IMG/VR virus record: IMGVR_UViG_3300042475_003311
Span: 1 to 28,183 of that record
Reading direction: 5' to 3' (one strand)
DNA: 28,183 nucleotides
Origin: a virus
Shown: positions 556-19,221 of the stretch, one piece after another
Position numbering within the stretch: the first letter of the stretch is position 1
Layout: each line of letters opens with the position of its first letter
Notes under the pieces: model-generated
Told to the model about the DNA's origin: nothing
Database searches by the model: none
The model's input: only the letters and a program-made list of their open reading frames with translations
Program-made: the position numbers and the translations under genes

Positions 556-2369
556 AGGCCCTGCATGACATCTACCGCGAGGCATGGCAGCCACCCGACC
601 GGCGACCACCGTGGGAATGGTGCGAGGACCACATTGAGGGCATCCCATACTCGCCCAACCCTGGTCGATTCCGTTCGGAAAACTCACCATGGATCAGGGA
701 CGTGATGGAGGCCATCGTCGATCCGCGAATCCGCCTGGTGTCTATCATCGCGTCGGTACAGTCGTCCAAGACCACCGCACCGGAACTTGCCCTCTGCTAC
801 ATCGTGGCCAACATGCCGGGTCCAACATTGTGGCTCGACCAGACCGACGACGATGCCAAGGACCATTCCGAATCCCGCCTGCAAAAACTGTTTGAGGAGT
901 GCCAGCCCGTCCATTCGCTTTTTCCGCTTGGGGCGAACCGGCACAAGCGCAAAACCTCATCCATCCAATTCGACAACGGCATGACGCTCTGGGTTCTCGG
1001 GGCGTCCAACAAAACCAACCTGCAGCGCCGTTCAATCCGCTGGCTCATTGGCGACGAAACATGGCGCTGGCCGGTCGGCCACATGGCGGAAGCCGAGGCC
1101 CGGGTAACTGCCTTCGGCTGGCTTGGCAAATGCGTCTTCATGAGCCAGGGCGGCGAGGAAGACGACGACACACATCGGAAATTTGAGACGACCGACATGC
1201 GAGAATGGACGTTCGCATGTACCGAGTGCGGGCACCGCCAAGCGTTCAAGTGGGAGCAGGTCGAGTGGAGCAAGGACGCGAAAGACGACGACGGGAACTG
1301 GAACTTCGAACAAGTCAGGAGCACAACGGCCATGCGCTGTGCGGCGTGCAATCACTATTTCGACGACGCCGACAGGACGCGCCGGATATTGAACGCATCT
1401 GGCAAATTTGCGCGGACGAACCCGGCGGCCTCTGTCGAGAATGTAGGTTTTCACTGGAACGCCATGTGCTCCATGCCATGGGGGCAACTCGCCGAACTCT
1501 ACCTGCGGGCCAAGGCGGCGGCGCGCAAGGGCGATGTGAGCCTGCTCCAGCAGTTCTATCAGAAGCGGCTCGGGCTGCCATGGCGCGATTATGTCGAGGA
1601 TTACAAGGTCGAGATTACGAAATCCGGCTATAAGCTGGGAGAAATCTGGGCGGATGAAGAGGGCGCCATCGACCCGCGGTCCGGAGGTGTGATGGCCGCC
1701 CCTTTGCCGGATCGCGCGGGATTGATCCCCCTGCGGGTCATCACGGTGGACTGTCAGATTGACCACCTTTTCGTGGTCGTCCGGTCATGGACGGCGGAAG
1801 GATCAAGCCGCCTGGTGTGGAACGAGCGCATTCTGACCTTCACCGACATCGATGTGCTGCAAGAGCGGTTCAATGTTAATCCCAGCTTGGTGTTCCTCGA
1901 CGCCGGCCACGCCACCTATGACGTCTATCGGGAGTGCGCCAAGCGGGGCTGGGTGGCGCTGATGGGGGACCGCCGGCCGGTGTTCGCGCACAAGGGAGCC
2001 AACGGGAAATCAATCCAGCGGTTCTACTCGCCGCGCCGCAAGGTGGTGCTGACCCGCACCCAAGCATGCAACGTCCACTACTGGTCCAATCTCAACATCA
2101 AGGATACCCTCGCCCGCCTGCGCCGCAACCAGGATCCCGACAAGGGTCCGACGTGGGAAGTCCCAGACGACGCCTCCGAAGATTATCTGAGCCAGCTCGA
2201 AAGCGAGCACCGGACCAAGGAAAAGGGTCAGTGGTCATGGAAGCAGATAGGCGCGCGACCGAATCACTACTTGGATTGCGAGGCCATGCAAGCCGCCGCC
2301 GCCACCATGCTGAAAATCGTCGGGAGAGAGTCGGTCACCGCCCCTGTTGACACCCGGAACGAATCATGA
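552..2369 (+). CDS. Terminase large subunit, lambda GpA family
   Basis: Packaging ATPase and nuclease that cuts concatemers and pumps DNA into the prohead. The product is 605 aa from the ATG at 552, which overlaps the stop of the small subunit; an in-frame GTG at 528 is less likely. A Walker-A-like SVQSSKT lies at residues 68-74, and a Walker-B-like WLIGDE at 164-169 with Asp168-Glu169. Cys223/Cys226 and Cys263/Cys266 form two CxxC pairs typical of the zinc-binding insert of GpA proteins. The C-terminal half (VDCQIDHLFVVV, then LDAGHATYDVY and GDRRP) fits the GpA nuclease domain. GpA terminases usually belong to cos-packaging phages. The 3' end overlaps the amidase start by 4 nt, and the last codons include a GTTGACACCC element. 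Confidence 0.95.
   Translation: MKALHDIYREAWQPPDRRPPWEWCEDHIEGIPYSPNPGRFRSENSPWIRDVMEAIVDPRIRLVSIIASVQSSKTTAPELALCYIVANMPGPTLWLDQTDDDAKDHSESRLQKLFEECQPVHSLFPLGANRHKRKTSSIQFDNGMTLWVLGASNKTNLQRRSIRWLIGDETWRWPVGHMAEAEARVTAFGWLGKCVFMSQGGEEDDDTHRKFETTDMREWTFACTECGHRQAFKWEQVEWSKDAKDDDGNWNFEQVRSTTAMRCAACNHYFDDADRTRRILNASGKFARTNPAASVENVGFHWNAMCSMPWGQLAELYLRAKAAARKGDVSLLQQFYQKRLGLPWRDYVEDYKVEITKSGYKLGEIWADEEGAIDPRSGGVMAAPLPDRAGLIPLRVITVDCQIDHLFVVVRSWTAEGSSRLVWNERILTFTDIDVLQERFNVNPSLVFLDAGHATYDVYRECAKRGWVALMGDRRPVFAHKGANGKSIQRFYSPRRKVVLTRTQACNVHYWSNLNIKDTLARLRRNQDPDKGPTWEVPDDASEDYLSQLESEHRTKEKGQWSWKQIGARPNHYLDCEAMQAAAATMLKIVGRESVTAPVDTRNES
2347..2352 (+). promoter_or_regulatory. TTGAC start-associated element 1
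   Basis: TTGACA within GTTGACACCC, inside the last codons of the large terminase gene. Its first T is 19 nt before the amidase ATG at 2366. It is one of nine such elements in the late region; function unknown. Confidence 0.6.
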
Positions 2370-2956
2370 GCGCACCACTTATCGCCATCTGCGTCGGACA
2401 CAGCCGGCTCATCAAAGGAAAAATAGAAGGCGGCGCCGTCGCTGTCGATGGTACCAACGAGTGGAAGTTCAACTGCGTTCTCGCCGGCTACGTTTGTTCC
2501 GATCTTGGCAGGCTGGGGATCACGTCTGTTTGCATCACTCGCTACGAGGGGGATGGCTACTCTGCCGCGCAACGGTGGCTCGCCAGTGAGTTGAGGCGGA
2601 TCGGCGCCGCGGCCGCGCTCGAATTGCACTTCAACGATTCCGACAACCCGAAGGCCAACGGCCATGAAATGCTCTACTGGCAGACTTCCGCGCGCGGCAA
2701 GGCTCTGGCGGCATCCATCGATGCCCAGTTTGACCGCTACATCCCCGAGATCGCCGACCGCAACCTTCTGGCCAGAACCGACAAAAACCGCGGTGCTGAC
2801 TTTCTCGGCAAAACGCATTGCCCCGCCGTCATCGTGGAGAGCTTTTTCGGCTCGAACGCGGACGACTGGCAGGACGCGAAGATTTACCTGCTAACCATCG
2901 CGAAGGTAATCGCGTTCGGGATCCGCGATTGGCTGGCCGCTGATTCGCGGCGTTGA
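2366..2956 (+). CDS. N-acetylmuramoyl-L-alanine amidase (Amidase_3-like), likely endolysin
   Basis: Predicted zinc amidase that cleaves the MurNAc-L-Ala bond of peptidoglycan. The 196-aa product shows the family landmarks in order: GHSR with His12, a Glu at 32 in the usual second-ligand region, ELHFN with His88 (family form SxHxN), and VESFFGSN with Glu158 as the expected catalytic Glu. There is no signal peptide and no separate wall-binding domain, so it would need a holin to reach the wall, or could be carried in the virion. Its place between the large terminase and connector genes is unusual. No other wall hydrolase is recognisable in the lysis cluster near 18.1-19.1 kb, so this is probably the endolysin. 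Confidence 0.85.
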   Translation: MSAPLIAICVGHSRLIKGKIEGGAVAVDGTNEWKFNCVLAGYVCSDLGRLGITSVCITRYEGDGYSAAQRWLASELRRIGAAAALELHFNDSDNPKANGHEMLYWQTSARGKALAASIDAQFDRYIPEIADRNLLARTDKNRGADFLGKTHCPAVIVESFFGSNADDWQDAKIYLLTIAKVIAFGIRDWLAADSRR

Positions 2957-2958
2957 CA
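2953..2958 (+). promoter_or_regulatory. TTGAC start-associated element 2
   Basis: TTGACA within GTTGACACCC. Its TGA is the stop codon of the amidase, and its first T is 19 nt before the connector ATG at 2972. Confidence 0.6.
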
Positions 2959-2971
2959 CCCGTCATCGTGC

Positions 2972-3232
2972 ATGGCGCGAGGTCTTTTCATCACTGGTTT
3001 CACGGTCGCCGAGGTTCTGGCCATCCAGGCCCGCGCAAAGGCGATGCTGTTAGAGGGCAAAACCATCATGAATTGGAGCGACGCCGAGACGTCGGCTGCA
3101 AAACAATTCGTCATGCCGGTCGACCAGGTGCTCGACGAGTGCCGATACGCGTTAAAAGTCCTCGACCCTGATACCTACGGCCGTTCTCGCTTCTCCACCG
3201 TTTCCAGAATCTCTGGCTACCTGCCCAAATGA
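2972..3232 (+). CDS. Small head-tail connector candidate (gpW-like position)
   Basis: An 86-aa protein lying between the terminase and portal genes, exactly where lambda-type phages encode gpW, the small head-completion protein. It has an N-terminal helix-prone stretch (TVAEVLAIQARAKAMLLEGK), a middle segment and a second helical stretch (VDQVLDECRYALKVL). This pattern resembles gpW-type proteins (helix, short hairpin, helix), but I see no diagnostic residue. The ATG at 2972 is supported by the GTTGACACCC element 20 nt upstream. The stop overlaps the portal start (ATGA at 3229-3232). Function is inferred mainly from position. Confidence 0.5.
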   Translation: MARGLFITGFTVAEVLAIQARAKAMLLEGKTIMNWSDAETSAAKQFVMPVDQVLDECRYALKVLDPDTYGRSRFSTVSRISGYLPK

Positions 3233-4668
3233 CCCTCAAATCGATCCTCGCCAGCCTGTTGCCGCCGATACTCACGCCCACGGCCTGGTCAACCACCTTC
3301 GAGTCTGCCAATTCTTCCCCGCGCAGGGGAGAGGTTCCCGGCGCCTATCCGACTGACTCGAAAAAGGAACTCACGCAATGGGTGCGGGCTGAACTGGTCC
3401 GCAAGTCGCGCTACCTGCACAAGAACAGCGGATTTGTCAGAGAGCTGGTTGGCAACATGGCGCTCTACTCGACCGGCGACGGCATCCGCGTGCAGGCCCA
3501 ATCTTCCAATCCTGATTGGAATCTGGCAGCAGAGGAATACTTCGACATGTGGTCAGCCGGATGCGAGGTCACCGGCCGTTTCTCTTTCGAGGAATGCCAG
3601 TCACTGGTTTGCCGCGGCGTCGACATTGACGGCGAATACTTCGTTCACAAAACCCGCAACCGGGCCGGCGAGCCCCGCCTGCAATTGCTGGAATCTCACC
3701 GGATAAGCGGCGATTGGAACGCGGCGTCCACCGATGGCGTCACCCTCGACGCGTATGGCGCGCCCATCTCCTACTGCGTGCGGCAGGACGACAACACCGG
3801 CACGGAAATCCCCGCAGCTGCCATGCTGCATATCTTCGAGCCGGAATGGGCGAGCGGAGTCAGGTCACATCCGACCATCCAACATTCCATCAACCACGTC
3901 CTCGATGAAATCGAAATGCTGGCGCTGGAAAAACACGCGGTCAAAGACAACTCCGACGTGTCCCGCGTCATCACGACCGAGCGCGGCGAGATTGACGAAA
4001 ACGGGGACTTCATAATAACCGGAGAGGCGGGTGGCGAGACCGCCGACGCCAGCGACCCTGCCGCGCTGCAAAAAATCGTTGGCGGCAAGATGGTGGCGCT
4101 CAAGCCAGGCGAGAAAATCGAAAGTTACACCAGCAACCGGCCATCTCCAACATTCACCGGATTCCTCGAGCACATCCGCCGCGACTCCGCTCTTGGCGTC
4201 CTGCCGTATGAGTTCGCCGCGGATTCCAGCAAGGTCGGCGGGGCGGGCGTGCGGCTCGTGGTAGCCAAGGCTGACAGGCGATTTTCATACCGACAGATGA
4301 TTTTGGAACGCCGGCTCATACGCCCGGTGTGGGCCTACGTCATCGGCGACGCCATCGCCCGCGGAATCCTTCAGCCTGCTGCTGGATGGTGGAAAATCAC
4401 CACCGTCCCGCCCCGCCGCATCACTGTCGACGCCGGCCGCGAAGCCCAACAGAACCGCGCCGACGTGGAAATGGGACTCAAGACCCTCACCGACCACTAC
4501 ACCGAGCTTGGTTCCACTTTCGCGCATGAACTCGAACGCCGCGCGCAGGATGCGAAGCTGATCGTAGAGACGGCCGCCAAGTACGGCGTCCCGGTGGATA
4601 TGCTGTGGAAGCCGACCGGAAGCCCCATATCCCCGGCGCTCCCCGAAGAACCCCCGCCCGGGCGTTGA
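3229..4668 (+). CDS. Portal protein, lambda GpB-like (Phage_portal_2)
   Basis: Forms the dodecameric ring at one capsid vertex through which DNA enters and leaves. The 479-aa product carries family-typical features: an N-terminal region with many aromatic and charged residues and VRKSRYLHKNSGFVRELV near residue 54, a GDGIRVQAQ strand, the DGEYFV segment at about 132-137, and the LLESHRI segment typical of the lambda-B/HK-type clip region. A conserved Gly-rich VGGAGVRLV follows at about residue 335. Length is slightly shorter than lambda B (533 aa). The C-terminus is Pro-rich. It is translationally coupled to the upstream connector gene and is followed by a protease and scaffold, as in lambda. 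Confidence 0.92.
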   Translation: MTLKSILASLLPPILTPTAWSTTFESANSSPRRGEVPGAYPTDSKKELTQWVRAELVRKSRYLHKNSGFVRELVGNMALYSTGDGIRVQAQSSNPDWNLAAEEYFDMWSAGCEVTGRFSFEECQSLVCRGVDIDGEYFVHKTRNRAGEPRLQLLESHRISGDWNAASTDGVTLDAYGAPISYCVRQDDNTGTEIPAAAMLHIFEPEWASGVRSHPTIQHSINHVLDEIEMLALEKHAVKDNSDVSRVITTERGEIDENGDFIITGEAGGETADASDPAALQKIVGGKMVALKPGEKIESYTSNRPSPTFTGFLEHIRRDSALGVLPYEFAADSSKVGGAGVRLVVAKADRRFSYRQMILERRLIRPVWAYVIGDAIARGILQPAAGWWKITTVPPRRITVDAGREAQQNRADVEMGLKTLTDHYTELGSTFAHELERRAQDAKLIVETAAKYGVPVDMLWKPTGSPISPALPEEPPPGR

Positions 4669-4670
4669 CA
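4665..4670 (+). promoter_or_regulatory. TTGAC start-associated element 3
   Basis: TTGACA whose TGA is the portal stop codon. The first T is 19 nt before the protease ATG at 4684. Confidence 0.6.
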
Positions 4671-4683
4671 TCTCGCAGGGTAC

Positions 4684-5478
4684 ATGACCCCCGCGTTTCT
4701 CCAATCCCGCGAATGGCTGATTCTGCAGGAATCGCTACAGGCGATGGCTTGCGCCTCTGAGGCGTTCTTCTCTTTGGAAATTCCCTCCAAGCCAAAGGCG
4801 TCGCTCCTATCCGTTTCCAACGGAGTTGCCACCATCGACATCACCGGGCCGCTCATGCGCAACCCCGACGCGTTTGATCGTTACATGTTGGACGCCACCG
4901 ACATGAACGACATCCAAGAGGCCATCGACCAAGCCGGCAGCCGGCCCGACGTGCATTCCGTCATGCTCAACATCGACAGTCCTGGCGGCACCGTGCAGGG
5001 AACACCGGAACTCGCTGCCGCCGTCGCCGATCTCGGCGAATCCAAGCCGGTATACGCGTTTTCGTCCGGCCTCATGTGCTCTGCCGCCTATTGGATCGCC
5101 AGCCAGGCCAAGGCCATCTATGCCACCCCATCCGCCAGGGTGGGAAGCATTGGCGTCGTGCTGGCTGTGGTCGACCAGAGCGAGCGGTTGGCGAAAGCGG
5201 GGGTCAAGGTCGAGGTCTTCACCAGCGGAAAATACAAGGCCATCGGCCACTCTGCAAAACCCATGACGGACGAGCACCGAGCGCACGTGCAAAGCCAGAT
5301 TGACGACGTGGGAGCTGACTTCCGCCAGGCCGTCACAACGCGGCGAAACGTGCCGGCCGACGCCATGGAAGGTCAGGTTTTCAGTGGAAAAAACGCCGGC
5401 AAGGTCAAGCTCATCACCGCCACGGTCAAGAACGCCGCAGATGCCTATCAGCGACTGGCACAACTCCCTCGCGGTTGA
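4684..5478 (+). CDS. Prohead protease, S49/SppA family (lambda gpC-like)
   Basis: Serine protease of the ClpP/SppA fold that processes scaffold and portal during prohead maturation. The 264-aa product contains IDSPGG at 97-102, the catalytic Ser133 in MCSAAYWIAS, and the partner Lys in SGKYKAIG (Lys185 most likely, Lys183 the alternative). These match the Ser-Lys dyad of S49 peptidases. In lambda the scaffold Nu3 is nested in the C gene; here the scaffold-like gene is separate and follows directly. The ATG at 4684 is 19 nt from the first T of TTGACA in the end of the portal gene, and the portal stop codon lies within that element. Confidence 0.93.
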   Translation: MTPAFLQSREWLILQESLQAMACASEAFFSLEIPSKPKASLLSVSNGVATIDITGPLMRNPDAFDRYMLDATDMNDIQEAIDQAGSRPDVHSVMLNIDSPGGTVQGTPELAAAVADLGESKPVYAFSSGLMCSAAYWIASQAKAIYATPSARVGSIGVVLAVVDQSERLAKAGVKVEVFTSGKYKAIGHSAKPMTDEHRAHVQSQIDDVGADFRQAVTTRRNVPADAMEGQVFSGKNAGKVKLITATVKNAADAYQRLAQLPRG

Positions 5479-5480
5479 CA
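5475..5480 (+). promoter_or_regulatory. TTGAC start-associated element 4
   Basis: TTGACA within GTTGACACCG. Its TGA is the protease stop codon. The first T is 20 nt before GTG 5495 and supports that start for the scaffold-like gene. Confidence 0.55.
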
Positions 5481-5494
5481 CCGCACCAACCACC

Positions 5495-5899
5495 GTGAAT
5501 CCGACCATCGAACAAGAACTCGCCACCGCCAAGGCCGACCTGGTTAAATTTCAGGCTGACCACAAGGCACAAACCGACCTCCTAACCGAAGAGTCCACCA
5601 AGCTCGCCGCCGCGCTGGCCGATGTCACCAAGCTCACCGAAGAGAAGACCAAGGTCGAAGGTGACCTGGCCGCCGCGAACGCGGAACTCGCCAGCGAGAA
5701 AACGAAAGTCACCGGGCTGGAAGCCAGCCAAAAGGACTTCGACACCAAGGTTCAGACCGAGCTCGCCCGGCTCGCTGCCGCCACCGGCACCCAGACCCCC
5801 GCCAACGTGACTGCCGCTGGTACCAACCCCGACGCCTTCGCCGGGAAATCCGGCATCGAGCTCATGCAAGCCGCATTCGACGCAGATCTCAAAAAGTGA
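5495..5899 (+). CDS. Capsid scaffolding protein candidate (coiled coil), GTG start
   Basis: A 134-aa acidic, Ala/Lys/Glu/Thr-rich protein. Residues 5-95 form an almost continuous predicted coiled coil (repeated TKL, TEEKTKVEGD, ASEKTKV stretches), and a short C-terminal domain ends in GIELMQAAFDADLKK. A helical protein between protease and major capsid genes is the expected scaffold or capsid-assembly factor. The reading frame stays open upstream to 5300 inside the protease gene, so a longer nested start is possible. I chose GTG 5495 because it follows the protease stop and sits 20 nt after the first T of a TTGACACC element. No sequence motif proves scaffolding; role inferred from position and coiled coil. 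Confidence 0.7.
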   Translation: MNPTIEQELATAKADLVKFQADHKAQTDLLTEESTKLAAALADVTKLTEEKTKVEGDLAAANAELASEKTKVTGLEASQKDFDTKVQTELARLAAATGTQTPANVTAAGTNPDAFAGKSGIELMQAAFDADLKK

Positions 5900-5941
5900 T
5901 TCGATAGATAATCTCAATCTTCATACCAAAAAAACAACACC

Positions 5942-6889
5942 ATGGCCTATCTCAATCTACTCGACCTAACCAAGCTGCGCGGCCACGCCCGCGAAGTCGG
6001 TATCATCGAATCCATCGTCACCGCAGCGCCTGAGTTGGCCATCATCCCGGCCCGCACCATCTCCGGGACGTCCTTCAAGACGGTCGACCGCACAGCGCTG
6101 CCCGCCACCGGGTTCACCACCGCCAACGCCGGCATTGTTCCCGGCAAATCCTCGTTCGCGACCAAGCTCGTGGAATGCTTCATCTTCCGCGGTGCCATCA
6201 ATGTCGACGAGGCCGTCGCAATGGCGCACGAAGACGGCCCCGCCGCCCTGCAAGCCATCGAGGCCGATGGCGTCGGGCGCTCTGCCGGCATCGAAATCGG
6301 CAAGCAAGTATGGTACGGGCTGGACGAAGACGCCAACGGCTTCCCCGGCATCCGCTCGCTATGCCCGACCGACATGAAGGTCGATGCCACCGGCACCACC
6401 GCCACCACCGGATCTTCCGTCTTTGGCGTGAAGTTCGGCCCACAATTCGTGCAGCTCGTCTTCGGTGGCGGCTCCACCATCCGCCTGCCCGAGTTCCGCA
6501 AACAATCCGTCACCGATGCCAACAGCGGCCAATACGACGCGTTTGTTTCCAACCTGACCGCATGGGTTGGCCTGCAATGCGTGCATCCCTATGCCATCGG
6601 ACGCCTTTACAACTTGACCGCCGACAGCGGCAAGGGCCTTACCGACAGCCTGCTTGCCGACTTGCTCGCCAAGTACCCGGTCGGCTTCACTCCTGATGCG
6701 TGGTTCATGACACGCCGCAGCCGCACCCAGCTCCAAAAGTCGCGCACGGTCACTCTGACGGGCAATGGCAGCCGCGGTTCAGTCGGCTCGGAAACCGGCC
6801 TCATCGCCCCGCTTCCCACCGAGGCGTTCGGCATCCCGATCATCGTCACCGACAACTTGCTCAACACCGAAACCCTCGGCGCAGCCTGA
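5942..6889 (+). CDS. Major capsid protein
   Basis: A 315-aa protein that most likely forms the HK97-fold capsid shell. It begins with a helical N-arm (LTKLRGHAREVGIIESIV), then P-loop/A-domain-like segments with many Thr and Ala, an extended central region with Gly-rich FGPQFVQLVFGGGSTIRLPEF, and a late FMTRRSRTQLQKSR followed by EAFGIPIIVTDN, a pattern common near the C-terminus of phage coat proteins. Position after protease and scaffold and before a cement protein supports the call. It is the first gene after the scaffold, separated by a 42-nt AT-rich spacer without a Shine-Dalgarno sequence. Identification is by context and coat-like style rather than a named family signature. Confidence 0.85.
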   Translation: MAYLNLLDLTKLRGHAREVGIIESIVTAAPELAIIPARTISGTSFKTVDRTALPATGFTTANAGIVPGKSSFATKLVECFIFRGAINVDEAVAMAHEDGPAALQAIEADGVGRSAGIEIGKQVWYGLDEDANGFPGIRSLCPTDMKVDATGTTATTGSSVFGVKFGPQFVQLVFGGGSTIRLPEFRKQSVTDANSGQYDAFVSNLTAWVGLQCVHPYAIGRLYNLTADSGKGLTDSLLADLLAKYPVGFTPDAWFMTRRSRTQLQKSRTVTLTGNGSRGSVGSETGLIAPLPTEAFGIPIIVTDNLLNTETLGAA

Positions 6890-6928
6890 TCCACCACAGA
6901 ATAACCGAACCCAATCCATTACAACATC

Positions 6929-7324: not shown

Positions 7325-7360
7325 TTCTTGCTGGTTCGTCTGAATTGTTACTGTTAGGGG

Positions 7361-7395
7361 AAGGCCCGCCGCTCGTCACGGCGGGCCTTTTTTTT
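7361..7395 (+). terminator. Strong intrinsic terminator at the head/tail boundary
   Basis: A perfect 10-bp stem (AAGGCCCGCC at 7361-7370 with GGCGGGCCTT at 7380-7389), a 9-nt loop and an eight-T tract at 7388-7395. It lies 36 bp after the cement gene stop and would cut transcription between head and tail genes, presumably partially or under antitermination. The last two Ts are also the first bases of a TTGACA element. Confidence 0.93.
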
Positions 7396-7399
7396 GACA
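7394..7399 (+). promoter_or_regulatory. TTGAC start-associated element 5
   Basis: TTGACA emerging from the T tract of the 7361-7395 terminator, 19 nt before ATG 7413. No upstream stop codon is involved here, so the element is not just a by-product of TGA use. Confidence 0.6.
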
Positions 7400-7412
7400 T
7401 GTTCGCCCAGGC

Positions 7413-7724: not shown

Positions 7725-8523
7725 CGTCAGGATAACCGCCACCATGCACGGCGCGAGTAATGTCGCCCGCCTGCTGAGCCGTCACCCCGAGAAGATCGGC
7801 CGCACGCTGGAATCGCTGGTCAAACAGGAGGCGCGCGGGATGGCCGTCGAGCTCGCCCGCCACACCCGCCCGTTCGGGTTCGGGGAATCCGCCAAGGCGC
7901 GCGGCGAAAAGGCCGTCAGGGCCGACATCCACCGCGTCTACAAGCCGCCGGCCGAAGCGTATGAGCAAATGAAGAAAGTGGATCCTGCCCTTGCTGATAG
8001 GTTTTGGGCAGCTGTCACAAACCGCCGGTTCGTCAAGGCCAACAAGGTGATGCAGGATTCGTCATCGCCGATGCACGGCGTCTCCATGGGTAGGCTCGAC
8101 CCATCGCTGCACAAGTCAGCCAGAACCGGCCCGCACGCCAATGTTCCGCGCCGCACCAAGCCGTCACAAATCGTCACCAGCCAGACCGCTATCGACTCTT
8201 ACGCGAAAAAGAAATTGCGAATGGTCGGCTTTGCCAAGGCGTCGTGGATCAACTGCGCCAAGGCCATCGGCGGGCGCGTCCGAGGTGCCGCGCAATGGGC
8301 CACTCGGCACAAAAAAGCCCCCGGCACCGCCACCGTCAAGACTGGTGCCAACCCATCGGTGACGCTGATAAACAGCCTCTGGTACATCGACCAGGTATGC
8401 CCGGTATCTTCCGTGGAGATGGCGCTGAAGAGCGCGTCAGAACGCTTGCGCAAGGCGCTGGCACATTCCATGGCCGCTATTGCGAACCGCACCAACGCCG
8501 CCCTGCGCCGCCGCGCCGGTTGA
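7717..8523 (+). CDS. Minor tail or head-tail protein (gpZ/HK97 gp10-like position)
   Basis: A 268-aa strongly basic protein rich in Arg, Lys and Ala. The N-terminal segment ITATMHGASNVARLLSRHPEK, followed by a helix with EARGMAVELARHTRPFG, resembles tail-completion proteins of the HK97 gp10/lambda gpZ type (bundle of helices with a conserved turn near residue 40-50). A central insert (HGVSMGRLDPSLHKSARTG...) is basic and Ser-rich, and the C-terminus is helical. It overlaps the joining-protein gene and precedes a tail-terminator candidate, matching the Z-U-V order of lambda. Assignment is inferred and moderately supported. Confidence 0.5.
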   Translation: MSDVRITATMHGASNVARLLSRHPEKIGRTLESLVKQEARGMAVELARHTRPFGFGESAKARGEKAVRADIHRVYKPPAEAYEQMKKVDPALADRFWAAVTNRRFVKANKVMQDSSSPMHGVSMGRLDPSLHKSARTGPHANVPRRTKPSQIVTSQTAIDSYAKKKLRMVGFAKASWINCAKAIGGRVRGAAQWATRHKKAPGTATVKTGANPSVTLINSLWYIDQVCPVSSVEMALKSASERLRKALAHSMAAIANRTNAALRRRAG

Positions 8524-8525
8524 CG
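8520..8525 (+). promoter_or_regulatory. TTGAC start-associated element 6
   Basis: TTGACG variant, whose TGA ends the upstream tail gene, 19 nt before ATG 8539. Confidence 0.5.
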
Positions 8526-8538
8526 CGCGCAACAGGCC

Positions 8539-8961
8539 ATGCCACTGATCGAAGACGCGCTGACAGAAAACCTCAGGGGATGGATGGAAACCAACCGCCC
8601 CACCGGGATACCGACCACCATCCCCATAATCATATCTAACCGGGATGCAGTCAGAACCCGCCCGTGCATCGTGCTGGAAGCGCCGGAATCCAAGCGCGTC
8701 ACCGCAATGCGGCAGACCGCCCGCGTCAAGCTCGACGTCCATCTTTTCTCCCAGGCGCACGACACCACCGCCGCCGATCACGGCGTGATTGCCAAGGACA
8801 TCGAGGACATGTTGGACGCCAAGACGGCGATCCAGACCGATCTCAACTCGACCACGTTCAAGTTGCACGACTTGATCCTGCGCGAAACCTCGACTGTCCC
8901 AGACGAAGATCACGGCCGCGAAACCGTGCTGAGCTACGAGGCGGTCGTGTCCGCCGCATAG
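8539..8961 (+). CDS. Tail terminator candidate (gpU-like position)
   Basis: A 140-aa protein with an N-terminal helix (IEDALTENLRGWMETNRP), then alternating strands including RPCIVLEAPESKRV, TARVKLDVHLFSQ, a helix HGVIAKDIEDMLDA and a final strand set. This mixed alpha/beta pattern with a central VKLDVHLF strand is common among tail-terminator proteins, which cap the tail tube at the head-proximal end. It sits between the gpZ-like gene and the probable tail tube gene, as gpU does in lambda. The start is supported by a TTGACG element 19 nt upstream. Function from position and fold style only. Confidence 0.5.
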   Translation: MPLIEDALTENLRGWMETNRPTGIPTTIPIIISNRDAVRTRPCIVLEAPESKRVTAMRQTARVKLDVHLFSQAHDTTAADHGVIAKDIEDMLDAKTAIQTDLNSTTFKLHDLILRETSTVPDEDHGRETVLSYEAVVSAA

Positions 8962-8967
8962 TTGACA
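8962..8967 (+). promoter_or_regulatory. TTGAC start-associated element 7
   Basis: TTGACA within GTTGACACCG, directly after a TAG stop, 19 nt before ATG 8981. The TGA here is not used as the stop codon. Confidence 0.6.
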
Positions 8968-8980
8968 CCGACGTAAAAGC

Positions 8981-9358
8981 ATGGCTGCAACCGAACTTGG
9001 GACTGTGGGGATTTGGGGCATAGGCGCCGACGAAACCGGCATCCTCATCACCGATCATTCATTTGATTTTTCCGACTCTGAAAAGCTGGTCCTCGACAGG
9101 AGCGGCGAAATCATCGGCATGGGACTCTATCAACCCAAGATCGAGTGCAAAATTTCCGGTCTGGTGCCGTCGGCATCGGCATTCAGCGGCAAGATCGCCG
9201 CCGCGCTCACCCTCGCCAACGCTATCCCCGATCACGCGCAGGCATCGTCCGGCGGATCGACCATTCTCCGCACATTGAGCCGCTCGGCGAACAATGAGGA
9301 TTGGGAGAAGATCGAACTCGGGGCTGTCCATTACGCATCGCTCACCATCGGAACGTAA
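8981..9358 (+). CDS. Tail tube (major tail) protein candidate
   Basis: A 125-aa Gly/Ser/Ala-rich protein with beta strands (GILITDHSFDFSDSEKLVL, GMGLYQPKIECKISGLV) separated by a helix with KIAAALTLANAI and ending in LGAVHYASLTIG. The DRSGEIIGMGLYQPKIECKISG stretch, a loop followed by a beta hairpin, is reminiscent of small phage tail-tube proteins. It lies between the tail-terminator candidate and the tail chaperone genes, where the major tail protein is expected, though the next gene could also be the tube. A GTTGACACC element precedes the start. Confidence 0.5.
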   Translation: MAATELGTVGIWGIGADETGILITDHSFDFSDSEKLVLDRSGEIIGMGLYQPKIECKISGLVPSASAFSGKIAAALTLANAIPDHAQASSGGSTILRTLSRSANNEDWEKIELGAVHYASLTIGT

Positions 9359-9390
9359 CGCCGGCACCCAACCCCCAACCCAGATATTAG

Positions 9391-9792
9391 ATGTCCTCTG
9401 TTTTTCATATCTCCGGCACCGCCACCGCGAACACCGCGCTCGCCGCCGCCCTCACCGCGGTTGGCATTCAGCTGGCGGAAAAGCCGTTTATCAAGACCGT
9501 GGGAGACGGCATTTTCAACGAACGCACCATTTGGTTTTTCGAGCCCGCCAGCCCGTGCGGCAAGTACAAGACCAAGGAACTCATTGCCGCATGGAGCGAT
9601 GACGCCTGGCACGCCGCCAACCCCGAACACCCGTTCGCCTACATCAAGTGCGCGCTCAGCAACCGGGAACGCCTGGTCGATAAAGTCAAGCAGGGCGTGC
9701 CGCTTGCCTGTGTCAGACGCAAGGGCAAAATCGCTTTCATCCCTCTCAATGCCGACCTGCGCACTGAAGAATTATTCATGCGCCAGCTCTGA
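9391..9792 (+). CDS. Uncharacterised tail-region protein
   Basis: A 133-aa protein that I do not recognise. The N-terminal third is Ala/Thr-rich (TATANTALAAALTAVGIQL) and the rest is mixed, with WFFEPASPCGKYKTKELIAAWSDD and ACVRRKGKIAFIPL. Three Cys residues are scattered and do not form a metal motif. It sits between the tail-tube candidate and the tail assembly chaperone, so a structural or assembly role in the tail is likely. The leader before ATG 9391 is C-rich and has no Shine-Dalgarno sequence. Confidence 0.6.
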   Translation: MSSVFHISGTATANTALAAALTAVGIQLAEKPFIKTVGDGIFNERTIWFFEPASPCGKYKTKELIAAWSDDAWHAANPEHPFAYIKCALSNRERLVDKVKQGVPLACVRRKGKIAFIPLNADLRTEELFMRQL

Positions 9793-9815
9793 CAGAATCA
9801 CCCCCCCCAGATCCC

Positions 9816-10238
9816 ATGAACGATACCGATAGATCCTCGCTCCTGTCAGGAGCATTCCACGACGTCGAGACCATCGTCGGAGGCCACGTCATGCGGCCCC
9901 TTTCCCTGGCCACTTATGACGTCATGCTGCGCACCGGCAACCCGCTTGCGGATGGCGACATGCCAGCCGAAGGCACGCCGGCATTCTCCGGTGCCATCAT
10001 GGGCTTTATCTACGCCCACTGCGGCCAATGGGTCGAAGTGGTCAGAGCCTCGTTCGACAACCAATCGTTCCGCGAGGCAGCGCTGATTTTCTGCGGTGAC
10101 CTCACCCCGGGCGACTTCCAGACCGCGTTCAAATCCCTCGAGCGCCAGAGCAAGGACTTGGAAGCGGCGCAAGCCGAAGCCGTAGGGGGCGGCAGCCGCG
10201 CAAAAAAGCCACGGCCTGCGACGAACCGGGATTCATAG
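9816..10238 (+). CDS. Tail assembly chaperone, zero-frame product (gpG-like)
   Basis: A 140-aa protein expected to coat the tape measure protein during tail-tube assembly. It is helical with VMRPLSLATYDVMLRTGNPLAD near the N-terminus, a signature style of phage tail chaperones, then FIYAHCGQW and LTPGDFQTAF, with a basic, Gly-rich C-terminal tail (VGGGSRAKKPRP). Position directly upstream of the tape measure gene is canonical. The A AAA AAG heptamer at 10202-10208 lies in the right phase in the basic tail, so this is the non-shifted product of a G/GT pair. An eight-C run at 9801-9808 lies just before the gene. Confidence 0.85.
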   Translation: MNDTDRSSLLSGAFHDVETIVGGHVMRPLSLATYDVMLRTGNPLADGDMPAEGTPAFSGAIMGFIYAHCGQWVEVVRASFDNQSFREAALIFCGDLTPGDFQTAFKSLERQSKDLEAAQAEAVGGGSRAKKPRPATNRDS

Positions 10239-10468
10239 CGGCGCACATCTTCTCCCTCGCCGCGGAAACCGGATGGACCGAGGAACGCATCATGTTCATG
10301 CCCCTGTCACGACTGGCACAATATCAGCATTGCCTGCTGCGCAGGAGTGGCACCAGGACCGCGTGGGCCAACTCGCTGATGCCAGAGAGCCGCCTCGGCC
10401 TCAAGGAGCAGATGGAGACACTCAGGGCGCAATGGATGGGCAAGGTTGACTCGGCACCAGAAGCATGA
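9816..10468 (+). CDS. Tail assembly chaperone, -1 frameshift fusion (gpGT-like)
   Basis: Predicted longer product made by -1 slippage on A AAA AAG at 10202-10208. After decoding 131 zero-frame codons the ribosome would resume with GCC at 10208-10210, reading 86 further codons to TGA at 10466-10468, giving 217 aa. The extension reads ATACDEPGFIAAHIFSLAAE and continues with GWTEERIMFMPLSRLAQYQH, which is helix-rich and has the look of lambda T-domain equivalents. It has no ATG start of its own near its beginning and exactly fills the otherwise gene-free gap before the tape measure gene, whose ATG overlaps its stop (ATGA at 10465-10468). Confidence 0.87.
10202..10208 (+). promoter_or_regulatory. 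Programmed -1 frameshift slippery heptamer
   Basis: A AAA AAG in the zero frame of the chaperone gene (codons GCA AAA AAG), the most efficient bacterial -1 slippage heptamer. An AGGGGG tract at 10184-10189 lies 12 nt upstream and could act as an internal Shine-Dalgarno stimulator, as in dnaX. I did not identify a clear downstream stem-loop by eye. Confidence 0.88.
10446..10451 (+). promoter_or_regulatory. TTGAC start-associated element 8
   Basis: TTGACT variant inside the -1 frame of the tail chaperone extension (read as Val-Asp), 19 nt before the tape measure ATG at 10465. Confidence 0.5.
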
Positions 10469-12165
10469 GCTCGCTAACCGTCACACTCGGGGCTGACATC
10501 TCCTCGCTGAAGCGCGGCCTGGCATCCGCCACGTCGCTTGTCGCTGCATCCGCATCCCGCATGGGCCGGACTGTCGGCGCGGGACTCGCCGGGCTGGGGA
10601 AGGCCGGCATCGGTGCCGCGCTGGCTGGCGGAGCCGCCGCAGTTGGCATCGCCGCCAAGTCCATCTCATCCGCTGCCGATTTTGAGCAGACCAAGGTGGC
10701 GTTCACCACCCTGATAGGCGACGCCGCCAAGGCGGAACAGACTCTTGCGCAACTGCGCAAGCTCGGCGCGGAAACCCCGTTCGAGTTTCCCGAATTGGCA
10801 GACGCCGGCCGCAAGCTCATTGCCTTCGGGGAGGGCTCTGATACCGTTGCCGCCACCCTGCGCAAGATCGGCGACGTGTCGGCCGGCGTGCAAGCACCCA
10901 TCAGCGACATTGCCGAGATCTACGGCAAGGCGCGCGTGCAGGGCCGCTTGTTCGCCGAGGACATCAACCAACTGACCGGGCGCGGCATCCCGATCATCGG
11001 CCAGCTTGCCAAGCAGTTCGGCGTGTCAGAGGGCGAGGTCAAGAAGCTCGTAGAATCCGGCCAGGTCGGCTTCCCGCAAATCGAACAGGCGTTCACATCC
11101 ATGACCGGCAAGGGTGGCAAGTTCGCCGGCATGATGGAAGCGCAGAGCAAAACCACCAAGGGACTGTTTTCCTCGCTCAAGGACTCCATCAACGAAGCGT
11201 TTCTGGCGCTCGGCACTCCAATCAACGATGCGATTCGCCCGATGGTGGAACAAGCAATAGGCCTCGTGTCGAAGCTCGCCCCGCTGGCCGCCGATGCTGG
11301 CAAGCGCGTCAAGGAGGCCATCATGTTCGTCATCGCCGCCTTCAAGAGCGGGCAGATTCTCGACCTCGTTACGGCATCCCTGCAGCTCGGCTTCGCTGTG
11401 GCGATCAACTCGCTCATCAACGGCTTCCGCGCCGCCGTGTCATTCCTGTTCTACTTCATCAGCGACGGTGCCATGTGGAAGGGGCTCGGGACCATCCTGC
11501 TAGGTCTGGCTTCCAGTTTCGGCCTCGCCATTCTAAGCGCGTTCGAGATGCCGATTACCTATCTCAAGGCCGGTATCGAGTGGGTCGTCGCGCACATGCT
11601 CAAGGGACTGGCAAAAATCCCCGGCATGTCCAAGCTAATGGGGTTTGAGTCTCAGGACGTGGACACGAACTTTGGGAACATCCTGGCATCCAACAAGGCG
11701 GAAGGCGGCAAGCTGTTTGGCGTGGACTACAAGGATTTGCAGCGGGAGAACAACCGCCTGATTGAGTCCGGGGCATCGGGCCTCGGAACGAGCGCGGCCA
11801 ACGCTGCCAAGAAAACTCTCGCCTTCGGGTTCACCGATACCATCGACACCACCGGCCTGCGGAACAACATGGGCAACGTGGTGCGGACGATTCAGGAATC
11901 CATGCCCAAGCCGGAAGCGCTCAAGAAGGCAGCCGACGCAGCGAAGGGAACGACCGACACCACCAAGAAGGACAAGGTTTCCGCCAGACTGGAACCCTTG
12001 GTTTCATCGCTCGGCAAGGTCGGCGGCGGCGGCTACGGATCGGGCGCCCTCGACGCGCAGCGCGAAAACAACCGGCTCACCGGGCGCACGAACGACCTGC
12101 TCACAGATCTCAACAAAAACGTCGGCAAGCTCGGCGGCCGGCCGCTGGTGGCCACATACGGTTAG
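10465..12165 (+). CDS. Tape measure protein
   Basis: Sets tail length and is ejected with the DNA. The 566-aa product begins with LTVTLGADISSLKRGLASAT, followed by an Ala/Gly-rich helix, then AADFEQTKVAFTTLIGD and the conserved TPFEFPELADAGRKLIAFG segment, a hallmark of tape measure proteins. Further typical parts are LFAEDINQLTGRGIPIIGQLA and FTSMTGKGGKFAGMMEAQSKTTKGLF. Two hydrophobic segments (about 308-330 and 335-360) could span the inner membrane at infection. At roughly 0.15 nm per residue the length predicts a tail of about 85 nm, short for a siphovirus. Start overlaps the stop of the frameshift extension, and a TTGACT element lies 19 nt upstream. Confidence 0.95.
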   Translation: MSSLTVTLGADISSLKRGLASATSLVAASASRMGRTVGAGLAGLGKAGIGAALAGGAAAVGIAAKSISSAADFEQTKVAFTTLIGDAAKAEQTLAQLRKLGAETPFEFPELADAGRKLIAFGEGSDTVAATLRKIGDVSAGVQAPISDIAEIYGKARVQGRLFAEDINQLTGRGIPIIGQLAKQFGVSEGEVKKLVESGQVGFPQIEQAFTSMTGKGGKFAGMMEAQSKTTKGLFSSLKDSINEAFLALGTPINDAIRPMVEQAIGLVSKLAPLAADAGKRVKEAIMFVIAAFKSGQILDLVTASLQLGFAVAINSLINGFRAAVSFLFYFISDGAMWKGLGTILLGLASSFGLAILSAFEMPITYLKAGIEWVVAHMLKGLAKIPGMSKLMGFESQDVDTNFGNILASNKAEGGKLFGVDYKDLQRENNRLIESGASGLGTSAANAAKKTLAFGFTDTIDTTGLRNNMGNVVRTIQESMPKPEALKKAADAAKGTTDTTKKDKVSARLEPLVSSLGKVGGGGYGSGALDAQRENNRLTGRTNDLLTDLNKNVGKLGGRPLVATYG

Positions 12166-12174
12166 ACTGAAATC

Positions 12175-12900
12175 ATGGCAACCCACATCAACATCCTCCC
12201 CGGCACGCTCTACCCGCAACCCGGCGCCACAATCCAAGTCGACAAAGAAGGCAAATGGACAGCCACGGAGGTGTATTTGTGCCACCGCTTATCGGCAGTG
12301 GCACTGATGCCGCGCCCTGGCACCGCCCATCCCGAGATCAGCTTTATCGAAGTCGCCACCGCATCCATCAATTACGGCGAGGGCGACGTTGCGGAAATTA
12401 CCTGCCAATACGCCGGGGCCGAGGACAAGGATCCCGAGGACGAAAAGAAGAATGCCGTCTATTCCATGGGGCTGTCAGTGGGCGAGGAAAATATCCTGCT
12501 TTGCTACCGCTACAAGGATTTAGTGACGTCGGAATTGGAAGCGCTCAAGGGCCTCATGGCCGGCAAGGACAAGGACGACCAAACCGTCACCCTGCGCTCG
12601 AAGGTGACCAGCACGCGTGGCTTGGAAGCGCTCGCCAAGATCGACCGCGGCCAGACATCCTACTATTGCCCGAAAATCACCTGGCGCGAAAGCTGGGTGC
12701 GCAACCGGCCGGTGGAAGCCGCCGAACTCAACAAGATCGGCAAGATCGACACCCCGCTCGGCCCGGCCCCAACCCTGGCAGGAACCCGCAACTGGCTGCG
12801 CAACGGCTGCACCCAGGAGCAGGACGGCAAGGCGTTCAAACTCGAACTCGAATGGCTCGCCAGCAATGAGGAAGGTTGGGATCCCAATATCTACGCCTGA
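12175..12900 (+). CDS. Uncharacterised tail-tip region protein
   Basis: A 241-aa protein directly after the tape measure gene, where lambda-type phages encode distal tail and tail-tip components. It is rich in charged residues with a central acidic stretch (GAEDKDPEDEKKN) and beta-like segments (ISFIEVATASINYGEGDVAEITCQY; KITWRESWV). Cys residues occur singly and form no zinc motif. I do not recognise the family. A role as distal tail or baseplate hub protein is plausible from position only. Start is the ATG at 12175, nine nt after the tape measure stop. Confidence 0.6.
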   Translation: MATHINILPGTLYPQPGATIQVDKEGKWTATEVYLCHRLSAVALMPRPGTAHPEISFIEVATASINYGEGDVAEITCQYAGAEDKDPEDEKKNAVYSMGLSVGEENILLCYRYKDLVTSELEALKGLMAGKDKDDQTVTLRSKVTSTRGLEALAKIDRGQTSYYCPKITWRESWVRNRPVEAAELNKIGKIDTPLGPAPTLAGTRNWLRNGCTQEQDGKAFKLELEWLASNEEGWDPNIYA

Positions 12901-12904
12901 CCGC

Positions 12905-14008
12905 ATGAAATTACCCGACAAAAAGAAGCCCGGCGACGTCATCAAGGCGTCGGATTGGAACGCGCTCATAGACGCCCTGGCAGCCCGCACGCCACGTTCC
13001 GGCACCGGCCTGGCAATGTCGGAGTCGTCAGGAGGTTTCGCCTACTCGCTGCCAACCCCGCTCGGGCAACTCCCGAAGGGGCAGCCGCCATTCTCCGTCA
13101 TCGCCATCGAGAAAAGCGGCAACAGCTACCTCGTCACCATCAAGGAGGGGTGGGTCATCGAGCGCCAACCGAAGACAGCCTCCCACCCGCATGTCAAGTT
13201 TCACATGCCCGAGTATGACGGCGATCCCATCGATACGATCCCGCGCATCCGACTCACCATGGCGGTCAATGACATCGCGTGGTGCCGGTACAAGACCGAT
13301 GACCGAGGGATTGTCACGTCCGAGAAGCCGACGATTGAGATCGAGCCAGATGACCAGAATGGCGCCCACTACTGGCCGCCGGACCCTGCCGGATCAGGTG
13401 GGGATGGCGACTACTATGTGAAGCTGTTCAAGCTGACCCTGGCGGATGGATCACCCTATATCACACCCTATCAGCAAAGCGACATCGAGCATTCGGCGCA
13501 ACTGTGGTTCGGCCAGAACACGGGGTCCGGTGGCGGCATCTTCAAGGAACATGACGAGGCCACCAACACGTTCAAGTTCCGATCCGTCCGGGGCGACTAC
13601 GGCATTGTCGAGCACCAGGACGCCGACGAGGTGTCGCTCGATTTCCACGCAGAGAACAAGGGTGCCGGCGCCCCCGTGTACGTCTTGCCACTCCTCAACG
13701 GGCAGCCTGACCCCAACCCGCCGGACGGCCCCGCGCAGTTCCGCGGCATTGCCGCCCGTGCATCCAACCCGCAGGTGCACGTTGCTTGCACGCCTGTTGC
13801 CGGTGTCCTGCCTGACACGATAACCGTGGAAGGGAACGGGGTTGTCGGCGCAATTCAGTGCATCAACGAAGACACGTCCACCACCACCCTTGTTGCTTGG
13901 GATGACGGACTGATGACCACCCATGGCAATGTCATGCTCAAGGTGCAAGAGTTCATGGTCTGCATATCCGGCACCCCCACTGCGGTTAAATTCCTCGTTC
14001 TCGACTGA
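12905..14008 (+). CDS. Tail tip/baseplate-associated protein
   Basis: A 367-aa protein starting MKLPDKKKPGDVIKASDWN at 12905. The frame is open further upstream to 12617, but that part overlaps the previous gene in another frame and is not credible. The N-terminal PGDxIKASDWNALIDAL pattern (Pro-Gly-Asp, then D-W-N and a helix) is one I associate with structural tail and fibre-attachment proteins. The body is beta-rich and Gly/Asp-rich with many aromatic residues (IAWCRYK, YYVKLFKLTL) and a late beta segment (ITVEGNGVVGAIQ). The end overlaps the next start by 1 nt (TGATG at 14006-14010). Exact role unknown. Confidence 0.6.
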   Translation: MKLPDKKKPGDVIKASDWNALIDALAARTPRSGTGLAMSESSGGFAYSLPTPLGQLPKGQPPFSVIAIEKSGNSYLVTIKEGWVIERQPKTASHPHVKFHMPEYDGDPIDTIPRIRLTMAVNDIAWCRYKTDDRGIVTSEKPTIEIEPDDQNGAHYWPPDPAGSGGDGDYYVKLFKLTLADGSPYITPYQQSDIEHSAQLWFGQNTGSGGGIFKEHDEATNTFKFRSVRGDYGIVEHQDADEVSLDFHAENKGAGAPVYVLPLLNGQPDPNPPDGPAQFRGIAARASNPQVHVACTPVAGVLPDTITVEGNGVVGAIQCINEDTSTTTLVAWDDGLMTTHGNVMLKVQEFMVCISGTPTAVKFLVLD

Positions 14009-14514
14009 TGGCCCACCTGATCGTACCAATGTCATTCGACGGGGATCTCTATTGCTGCGATCCCGACACGCGGCGCACCACCGCCCTGCTGAGTGGCGAC
14101 GCCGCGGAAATCGCCGCGAGCGAGTGGGAGGTGTTTCACGCGACGGCGTGGGGAGATCCCGTCACCAACCCGAACGCATACAGCACCGCAACTTCGACCG
14201 GGGCCGTCAAGTTCGGCGTGTGCTGCGCCTCAGAAGTGGAGCTTGAACTGACCGGCCAGATGGAAACCCTCGGCAACAGCTTCGATTGGATAGAGGTCAA
14301 GCTGAACGGCACCCGGGTGTACTTCCAAGCCAGCGTGTCCTCCAGCAACGACCCGTGGGACACCGAGGCTGTCGGGCCGGTCACCGTGACCTTGGAATTG
14401 ACCGACCGCCCGTGCGGTCACGTCATTGAGATCCTCGGCAGCACCGGGATAAACGGCGGGCTTACCGCCAACAACGACGTTTGGTGGCGGGCCAAAATCG
14501 TCTCAATTATTTGA
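14008..14514 (+). CDS. Uncharacterised tail-tip region protein
   Basis: A 168-aa protein coupled to the upstream gene through TGATG. It begins with MSFDGDLYCCDPDTRRTTALL and is otherwise beta-rich (VELELTGQMETLGNSFDWIEVKLNGTRVYF; VTVTLELTDRPCGHVIEILG). It contains five Cys, including CC pairs at about 16-17 and 72-73, which is unusual for its neighbours but fits no metal-binding motif I know. The beta-sandwich impression and position between baseplate-type genes suggest a structural or carbohydrate-contacting module. Function not recognised. Confidence 0.6.
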   Translation: MAHLIVPMSFDGDLYCCDPDTRRTTALLSGDAAEIAASEWEVFHATAWGDPVTNPNAYSTATSTGAVKFGVCCASEVELELTGQMETLGNSFDWIEVKLNGTRVYFQASVSSSNDPWDTEAVGPVTVTLELTDRPCGHVIEILGSTGINGGLTANNDVWWRAKIVSII

Positions 14515-14516
14515 CA
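14511..14516 (+). promoter_or_regulatory. TTGAC start-associated element 9
   Basis: TTGACA within TTTGACACCC. Its TGA ends the upstream gene, and its first T is 20 nt before GTG 14531. Both GTG-started genes in the set use 20 nt instead of 19. Confidence 0.55.
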
Positions 14517-14530
14517 CCCGAACAAATACC

Positions 14531-15472
14531 GTGAAGCTCTACATCGACCTCGAAAGCCGCGAACTCATCGAAGCCCCGGGATTCCGCAACCCCGTGACGA
14601 CTCTTCGGTTCAAGCGCGGCGATTCTGCGAAGCTCGAGGTCGCGTTTCTGACCGACCGCACGACCTACACCTCTCTCGGCGATGCCGAAGCGATAACGAT
14701 GCGCTTCGGCGTCAAGCAGTCCAACCGCTTCGACCTCGATTTCCTCGCCTACTGTGCCGACTGGATCATGCCGGGAGAGGAAGACGTCAGTCCCGTTTAC
14801 GTGTGCTACCCGAGCTTCAACACAGCGGGACTCGACGCCGCGCTGGACGTCGGAGAGAACCCCGAGATTGCATCACTGACGCTGATGGGCGAAATCACAT
14901 GGAGCGTGGGGGATGGCGAGCCGACCAGCACGCGCACCTTCGTTGTCATCGTGGAAAACGACGTCATCCGGGGCAACGAGTCCGGCCCGTCTGGAATCAC
15001 CGCCGGCATCCCGACTAACGCCACGCTGGAGATTGCGGGAACGCTGTCTCCTGATGTCACCGGATTTGTCGATTGCTATATCGACACCGATGGCAATCTA
15101 GCATTCACCGAGGGTGCGATTGTCTATTCCGATGTTAGCTATACCGGACCAGCCATCGTCAACAACATGGCAACTGGAAAGTGGAGCATTTACGACGTCA
15201 CTGCCGGCGTTGCCGCAGCTGCCGGCTTCTCCAGCATCGAGACTGTTCTGGTTGCTCCGACTCCGAATCTGGCAACATGGACCAATGTTGGTGGATCGAC
15301 CGGAACGTCAGAGGTGACGATAAAGTACGCTCCAACGTCCGGTCATGTCGGAACGATGAAGGTCGCCGCGGGAACGCTCTACGTCTGCGTGCTCTCCCCC
15401 TCCGGAATGGCAACCTGGCAAAAGGCCACGCTATCCGCCCACAACCTGTTCTTGGAAATCAGCCCGCCATAA
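14531..15472 (+). CDS. Baseplate/fibre adaptor protein with BppU-N-like N-terminus, GTG start
   Basis: A 313-aa protein. Residues 1-150 contain TTLRFKRGDSAKLEVAFL followed by a beta-sandwich-like region, the pattern seen in the N-terminal domain of baseplate upper proteins that dock fibres onto the tail tip. The C-terminal third (GTLYVCVLSPSGMATWQKATL) resembles short terminal modules of phage fibres. The gene may therefore be an adaptor fused to a fibre-like tip. The GTG at 14531 is favoured because a TTGACACCC element precedes it at 20 nt and the previous gene stops inside that element. Confidence 0.62.
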   Translation: MKLYIDLESRELIEAPGFRNPVTTLRFKRGDSAKLEVAFLTDRTTYTSLGDAEAITMRFGVKQSNRFDLDFLAYCADWIMPGEEDVSPVYVCYPSFNTAGLDAALDVGENPEIASLTLMGEITWSVGDGEPTSTRTFVVIVENDVIRGNESGPSGITAGIPTNATLEIAGTLSPDVTGFVDCYIDTDGNLAFTEGAIVYSDVSYTGPAIVNNMATGKWSIYDVTAGVAAAAGFSSIETVLVAPTPNLATWTNVGGSTGTSEVTIKYAPTSGHVGTMKVAAGTLYVCVLSPSGMATWQKATLSAHNLFLEISPP

Positions 15473-19083: not shown

Positions 19084-19180
19084 TCTACAAAAGTTCTACG
19101 TTTTCGCGCCTCACGGTGCCGCATGGTGTTTCATAACTCGTTGTAAATGCGCGAAAAGCCTGGAGCCGCAAAGAGCCAGC

Positions 19181-19208: not shown

Positions 19209-19221
19209 TCCCTCGGGAAAT

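Follow-up and report, generated by a model that had tools for sequence, protein, structure and literature searches.

A TTGAC element at a near-fixed distance before late-gene start codons of Verrucomicrobiota-type phages, a candidate start signal

TTGAC sites before late-gene starts

How start codons are chosen in bacteria in which Shine-Dalgarno (SD) sequences are scarce is an open question. It is raised by the stretch of viral DNA analysed here (the window: 28,183 bases, positions 1 to 28,183 of IMG/VR virus record IMGVR_UViG_3300042475_003311), in which a first-pass annotation had pointed out the short element TTGAC at a near-fixed distance before nine late-gene starts. The window is a Verrucomicrobiota-type phage; close relatives of its terminase in species genomes all lie in Verrucomicrobiota assemblies (Akkermansiaceae, Verrucomicrobiaceae, Prosthecobacter, Chthoniobacter, Puniceicoccaceae and others). 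What, then, is the element for? As argued below, it probably tells ribosomes where to begin.

All nine sites proved to be correctly placed. Seven of them (2347, 2953, 4665, 7394, 8520, 8962 and 10446) begin 19 nt 5' of the ATG codons at 2366, 2972, 4684, 7413, 8539, 8981 and 10465, respectively, while those at 5475 and 14511 begin 20 nt 5' of the GTG codons at 5495 and 14531; gene starts are predictions throughout. Seven of the nine copies read TTGACA, as had been noted. Hereby, TTGAC at 19 or 20 nt is found at 9 of 29 predicted late starts, compared to 0.047 expected for the two positions (Poisson P ~3e-18), the earlier estimate being about 0.06, and at none of the 14 early starts of the window, in line with its described absence from the early region. 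The word as such is not enriched (52 occurrences in the window versus 49 expected); the enrichment is positional. At 2953, 4665, 5475, 8520 and 14511 the TGA within the element is the stop codon of the upstream open reading frame (ORF), which are the five cases originally listed. The site at 10446, which had been set apart from these, is ambiguous, since the upstream ORF is either 10273-10449, which stops on the element TGA, or 10292-10468.

To place these sites in a wider context we used related IMG/VR loci, namely 80 loci plus the window for TTGACA counts and 131 loci including the window for the full set, all of these being kin of one another. The smaller set has 319 copies of TTGACA on the coding strand versus 23 on the opposite strand; start-locked copies make up 268 of 311 on the former versus 8 of 21 on the latter (80 loci). 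The distance from TTGACA to ATG is 19, 20, 21 or 22 nt in 55, 56, 15 and 88 cases, with 0-1 cases at 16-18 and 23-27 nt. Across all related loci, coding-strand TTGAC is found 253, 125, 95, 173 and 80 times at 19, 20, 21, 22 and 23 nt from starts versus 10-15 times at 16-18 nt, so that the distance ranges from 19 to 23 nt and counts are close to background at 16-18 and 24-25 nt. After removal of near-identical copies, 265 sites remain at 19-23 nt. Their consensus, (G/T)TTGACA(C), spans about -20 to -13 and is followed by a C-rich stretch and by a G-rich one just 5' of the start. In many phages the element-bearing start codons are supported by conserved protein N-termini.

The element is restricted to late genes. 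Counting gene families of three or more members, at least 22 carry it; terS, terL, protease, connector and tail genes are among its carriers. It is present in 60 of 64 terS genes (upstream gap of 14 nt or more), 59 of 63 S49 protease genes, 23 of 23 methyltransferase genes and 18 of 18 members of the tail gene family MAATFLG. Early gene families lack it (0/32, 0/31 and so on), as does the major capsid gene family (0/47).

When other phages were sought by the DNA pattern alone, nearly all element carriers belonged to the same lineage, with L298 and L330 as additional distant kin. L315, L291, L325 and L311 were rejected as further carriers, each showing one shared, chance-like match, and neither the cultured Akkermansia phage Moulinsart nor P8625 has the element at its annotated starts. 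Two further layouts were observed among the relatives. In a cargo-like gene for an NAD epimerase, located apart from the late operon (L246:3190-4122 and L238:13559-14491), the element is likewise at 19 nt, as though it moved along with genes. In L095, terS and terL lie on the strand opposite to the remaining late operon, which has ten locked TTGAC sites; this layout reflects either a rearranged prophage or an assembly artefact.

Absence from host genes and exchange with other kinds of start

To evaluate whether the hosts use the element, we examined 400 kb stretches from three host genomes with the same gene caller as for the phages. In phage contigs 253 of 942 starts have TTGAC 19-23 nt before them, and in prophage loci 182 of 703 do, compared to 2/261, 0/274 and 2/302 starts in the three host chromosomes (4/837 in total). 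In several hosts, whole-genome pattern matches cluster on prophage contigs, and among 195 genomes of the phylum pattern counts are low, little above those of a reversed-pattern control. The comparison proposed by the first-pass annotation thus yields a strong excess in related phages and none in hosts. A host-wide signal is thereby rejected; the element belongs to the phages and not to host chromosomal genes.

The element is not a Shine-Dalgarno sequence. The 16S rRNA of G002 and G012 contains no UGUCAAC, the best complement being the 5-mer GUCAA (for the minus-strand loci L137 and L138 this check covered a single orientation), and the host 16S tail is intact, ending in CACCTCCTTT. SD-like 4-mers are near background in phages and hosts alike, which corroborates the reported lack of SD sequences at most of these starts and agrees with published counts, according to which SD sequences are scarce in Akkermansia and other Verrucomicrobiota (PMC10783764). 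A literature search returned no paper joining TTGAC, Verrucomicrobia and Shine-Dalgarno, and no expression data for these phages.

A termination-reinitiation signal, the second half of the first role suggested for the element, is not supported in its strict form. A ParB-like gene ('CAH') carries the element although it is the first gene of a divergent unit, without an upstream translated gene on its strand, so that an upstream ribosome is not needed; moreover, the element TGA is the upstream stop at only 90 of 208 sites (43%).

Presence of the element depends on what else lies before the start. Where the upstream stop is 3-13 nt from the start, the element is found in 6 of 196 cases, compared to 71-73% at gaps of 14-23 nt. 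The same exchange occurs even inside single families: in the gpW family 0/26 genes have the element at gaps of 3-13 nt versus 49/52 at larger gaps, and in the MSTFSDWF family 0/23 versus 4/4 at an ATGA overlap. Where the element is missing and the gap is short or moderate, leaders are poor in G, A/C-rich and unfolded (minimum free energy, MFE, about -3.5 to -3.9), whereas leaders of element starts lack the A/C-rich character and are folded more (MFE -10.4). A late gene thus has either the element or one of two alternatives, namely an A/C-rich leader that is unfolded or a stop codon 3-13 nt upstream. Such exchangeable classes are the pattern expected of alternative start signals.

RNA-level and DNA-level readings of the element

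An ordinary sigma-70 promoter had been discounted by the annotation, and we agree: no -10 hexamer lies 16-18 bp 3' of TTGACA, alignment on the element reveals no second box at any spacing, and the spacer up to the start is GC-richer than its flanks (AT 0.32 vs 0.41). A different kind of promoter, which was not among the roles originally proposed, is the main rival. Here, a phage sigma factor or RNA polymerase would read GTTGACA at about -19; with transcription beginning at the start codon or shortly before it, each such late gene would have its own (nearly) leaderless mRNA. Such an arrangement would account for the sharp lower limit of 19 nt and the tail up to 23, as would result from a fixed 5' end, for the strong terminators that adjoin the element in many phages, and for the back-to-back elements, about 43 bp apart, that precede divergent genes. 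It would also fit the folding profile of element starts, which shows no unfolding 5' of the start and abrupt unfolding from the start codon onward. Leaderless transcription start sites make up 10-15% in some gut species including Akkermansia (PMC4782308), which lends this idea further plausibility. Nevertheless we consider it unlikely, given that a second box is lacking, that the spacer to be melted is the GC-rich one, that the presence of the element depends on stop-start distance, and that no phage polymerase or sigma factor is found among the genes looked at.

The P8625 phage lineage also counts in favour of this rival, as it has TTGACA 35-43 nt before several starts, in many cases with AT-rich -10 boxes; these sites are probable promoters. 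In L232 (P8625; 5412, 10736 and 15558) and in L249-L287, such TTGACA promoters stand before several late genes, each with an AT-rich -10 box and a very short leader. We also considered that a hairpin might bridge the 36-nt spacing in P8625 to an effective 19 nt. This is striking at three P8625 sites, but relatives show AT-rich -10 boxes, so that these sites are better read as promoters, and a hairpin between element and start shows no covariation.

RNA structure around the start codon provides further evidence. At element starts, pairs between -5..-2 and +5..+8 (-5:8 to -2:5) are enriched, so that the start codon lies in the loop. The stem score is 4.75 versus 4.01 (sd 0.13) after permutation, above all 200 permutations, and permutation within families gives z 5.0; at element-less and host starts this stem is neutral or depleted. 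In the S49 family it is the best register, with 66.9% paired versus 62.1% after shuffling and changes on both sides at all five pairs. Start codons behind the element thus tend to sit in a small hairpin, which is moderate evidence, supporting rather than decisive. The 5' half of the hairpin covaries with the coding half, which speaks against the leaderless promoter because that half would be useless if untranscribed.

Taken together, the start-codon lock, the replacement by other kinds of start and the folding around the start codon point towards RNA and translation. With slightly better than even confidence we regard the element as an RNA-level start signal of phage late genes that is read by a phage-specific factor, and a non-SD initiation signal, the first role named in the annotation, is the best-supported reading. 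Hereby, (G/U)UUGACA(C) at about -20 to -13 of the late mRNA would mark the start codon 19-23 nt 3' of the first U of UUGAC. Ribosomes would thus begin at starts having neither an SD sequence nor an open A/C-rich leader, the start codon often lying in a small hairpin. The element would be read by a phage-made factor or a phage-modified ribosome, a phage-made reader being most likely because host genes do not use the element. It would thus act in translation, be bound by a trans-acting factor, and activate rather than repress. The most specific version, i.e. a signal of Verrucomicrobiota phages only, with UUGAC at ~-19 and the start codon often in a hairpin loop, served by a phage-made initiation factor and opening a late-gene translation route unused by the host, can be put forward only tentatively.

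Several observations weigh against a translational start signal. The relaxed folding begins only at the start codon, as expected for mRNAs that begin there. The start stem gives a weak z of 1.5 with one representative per family, the permutation leaves some relatedness among the sites, and among the nine window sites the hairpin stands out at no more than two or three. The gpW pattern may stem from few evolutionary events. The capsid gene, presumably the top-expressed late gene, never carries the element. Finally, no candidate reader or universal regulator was found, the genes universal to element-bearing phages being structural, packaging or ParB-like.

Three other readings are less likely than the leaderless promoter. 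An endonuclease might read UUGACA plus structure and cut just 5' of the start codon, so that polycistronic late RNA would be converted to leaderless messages. This fits the fixed distance, the RNA structure, the phage specificity, the GC-rich spacer and the leaderless-like folding profile; with no nuclease candidate, and with terminator adjacency and the divergent first gene left unexplained, we deem it improbable. No better placed is a translational operator, in which a phage protein binds UUGAC and the start-codon hairpin and so keeps late genes repressed until their products are required. The start codon in a hairpin loop and the occurrence on late-type genes only, never on the capsid gene, would suit it, yet the hairpin is weak at many sites, there is no known binder, and the absence of the element at starts with a nearby stop is left unexplained. 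Least probable of all appears a stoperator-like DNA site, bound by a phage repressor that blocks elongation in the lysogen. The element is indeed asymmetric, has a single orientation to transcription, lies near gene starts, is missing from the host, and occurs as an inverted TGTCAA-N2-TTGAC pair in a regulatory region beside a helix-turn-helix (HTH) gene. Repressor sites, however, need neither a 19-23 nt start lock nor a link to leader type and stop distance.

The late operon of the window and comparison with known systems

The late operon of the window is lambda-like and comprises terS, a GpA-type terL, an Amidase_3 gene, a gpW-position gene, portal, S49 protease, a GP7-type capsid gene, and attachment and tail genes, with positions assigned by gene order where a gene is unnamed. 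All elements lie on the plus strand. The first (GTTGACAC, 2346..2353) is located within the end of terL, its TGA not being the terL stop, 19 nt before ATG 2366 of the Amidase_3 gene; the latter (2366-2956), between terL and the gpW-position gene, is in an unusual location for a lysis enzyme. The next copy (GTTGACAC, 2952..2959) supplies the amidase stop and stands 19 nt before ATG 2972 of the gpW-position gene (MARGLFITGFTVAEV), start and element being the same in relatives. GTTGACAT (4664..4671) holds the portal stop 19 nt before ATG 4684 of the S49 gene, where a small predicted hairpin contains the start codon. The S49 stop in turn lies in GTTGACAC (5474..5481), 20 nt before GTG 5495.

Between capsid and tail genes the window has a strong intrinsic terminator (GGCCCGCCG-N7-CGGCGGGCC plus T8; 7363..7395, plus strand), whose T-run enters the next element. 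Many relatives have a terminator at the same position, and a similar abutting layout is found in L006, L008, L022, L036, L090, L114 and L123. Late transcription must therefore read through or restart at this point. The abutting element (TTTGACAT, 7393..7400) lies 19 nt before ATG 7413 of the head-tail attachment gene, whose start codon occupies the loop of CCAGGC-AUGA-GCCUGG. The hairpin is plain here, present at 4684, and missing at 2366, 5495 and 14531. GTTGACGC (8519..8526) contains the upstream stop 19 nt before ATG 8539 of the tail-terminator-position gene, whose related family MPNLIEDRL has the element in 16/17 members. At GTTGACAC (8961..8968), 19 nt before ATG 8981, the upstream stop is a TAG immediately 5' of the element; its related family is MAATFLG. 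GTTGACTC (10445..10452) precedes ATG 10465 of the tape measure gene by 19 nt, and TTTGACAC (14510..14517), with the upstream stop as its TGA, precedes GTG 14531 by 20 nt.

3' of the late operon follow integrase and repressor genes and then the rightward early region. Beside the integrase, positions 19160-19210 hold a piece like a tRNA 3' end (GGTTCGAGCCCCGTCCGCTCCGCCA), in which ARAGORN finds no whole tRNA and which is likely an attachment site. In relatives a short divergent control region precedes terS (L238:3400-3860, L245, L026, L102, L115), with the ParB-like gene facing away from either an HTH gene or terS on the opposite strand. It has back-to-back TGTCAA-N2-5-TTGAC and a second dyad (ATCCGTAGTCTGCGGA or TATGCGT-N-GCGTAT) at the would-be -10 position, and is possibly the late-operon switch.

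Whichever reading holds, the element is a strong, portable, sequence-defined start mark at hundreds of sites in a single phage group, which corrects gene starts in these phages and marks late genes. Being missing from host genes, it offers a direct handle on whether these phages have their own translation start route or a leaderless-promoter system. If the former is true, a start signal not described so far would operate in bacteria that seldom use the textbook one.

Among known systems, the sigma-70 promoters of P8625-like Verrucomicrobia phages share TTGACA before late genes and a related gene order, but place it 35-43 nt from the ATG with an AT-rich -10 between, compared to 19-23 nt and a GC-rich spacer here. 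The stoperators of L5-like mycobacteriophages, transcription-blocking repressor sites whose consensus contains TGTCAA, are likewise oriented short repeats near gene starts; unlike the element with its 19-23 nt lock, they are not known to be locked to start codons. With the Shine-Dalgarno sequence the element shares a fixed position 5' of the start codon on the RNA strand; it has, however, no complement to CACCUCC, lies farther 5' and is unused by the host. The nearest known kind are the start-associated sequences (SAS) found in cluster K mycobacteriophages, for which no role has yet been established (PMC3203893, PMC11373665). These too are short asymmetric repeats in one orientation at a near-fixed distance before many starts of one phage group, sometimes with the upstream stop inside the repeat, nearly absent from the host and with a proposed role in translation. 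SAS, however, are 13 bp long (GGGATAGGAGCCC), lie 3-9 bp from the start, contain the SD core AGGAG and stand on non-structural genes, and ESAS hold putative sigma-70-type promoters. The element, by contrast, is 7-8 bp long, lies 19-23 nt from the start, has neither SD core nor -10 box and stands on late genes. It is thus not a member of this group; the two share a common logic and differ in sequence, distance, SD core and gene class.

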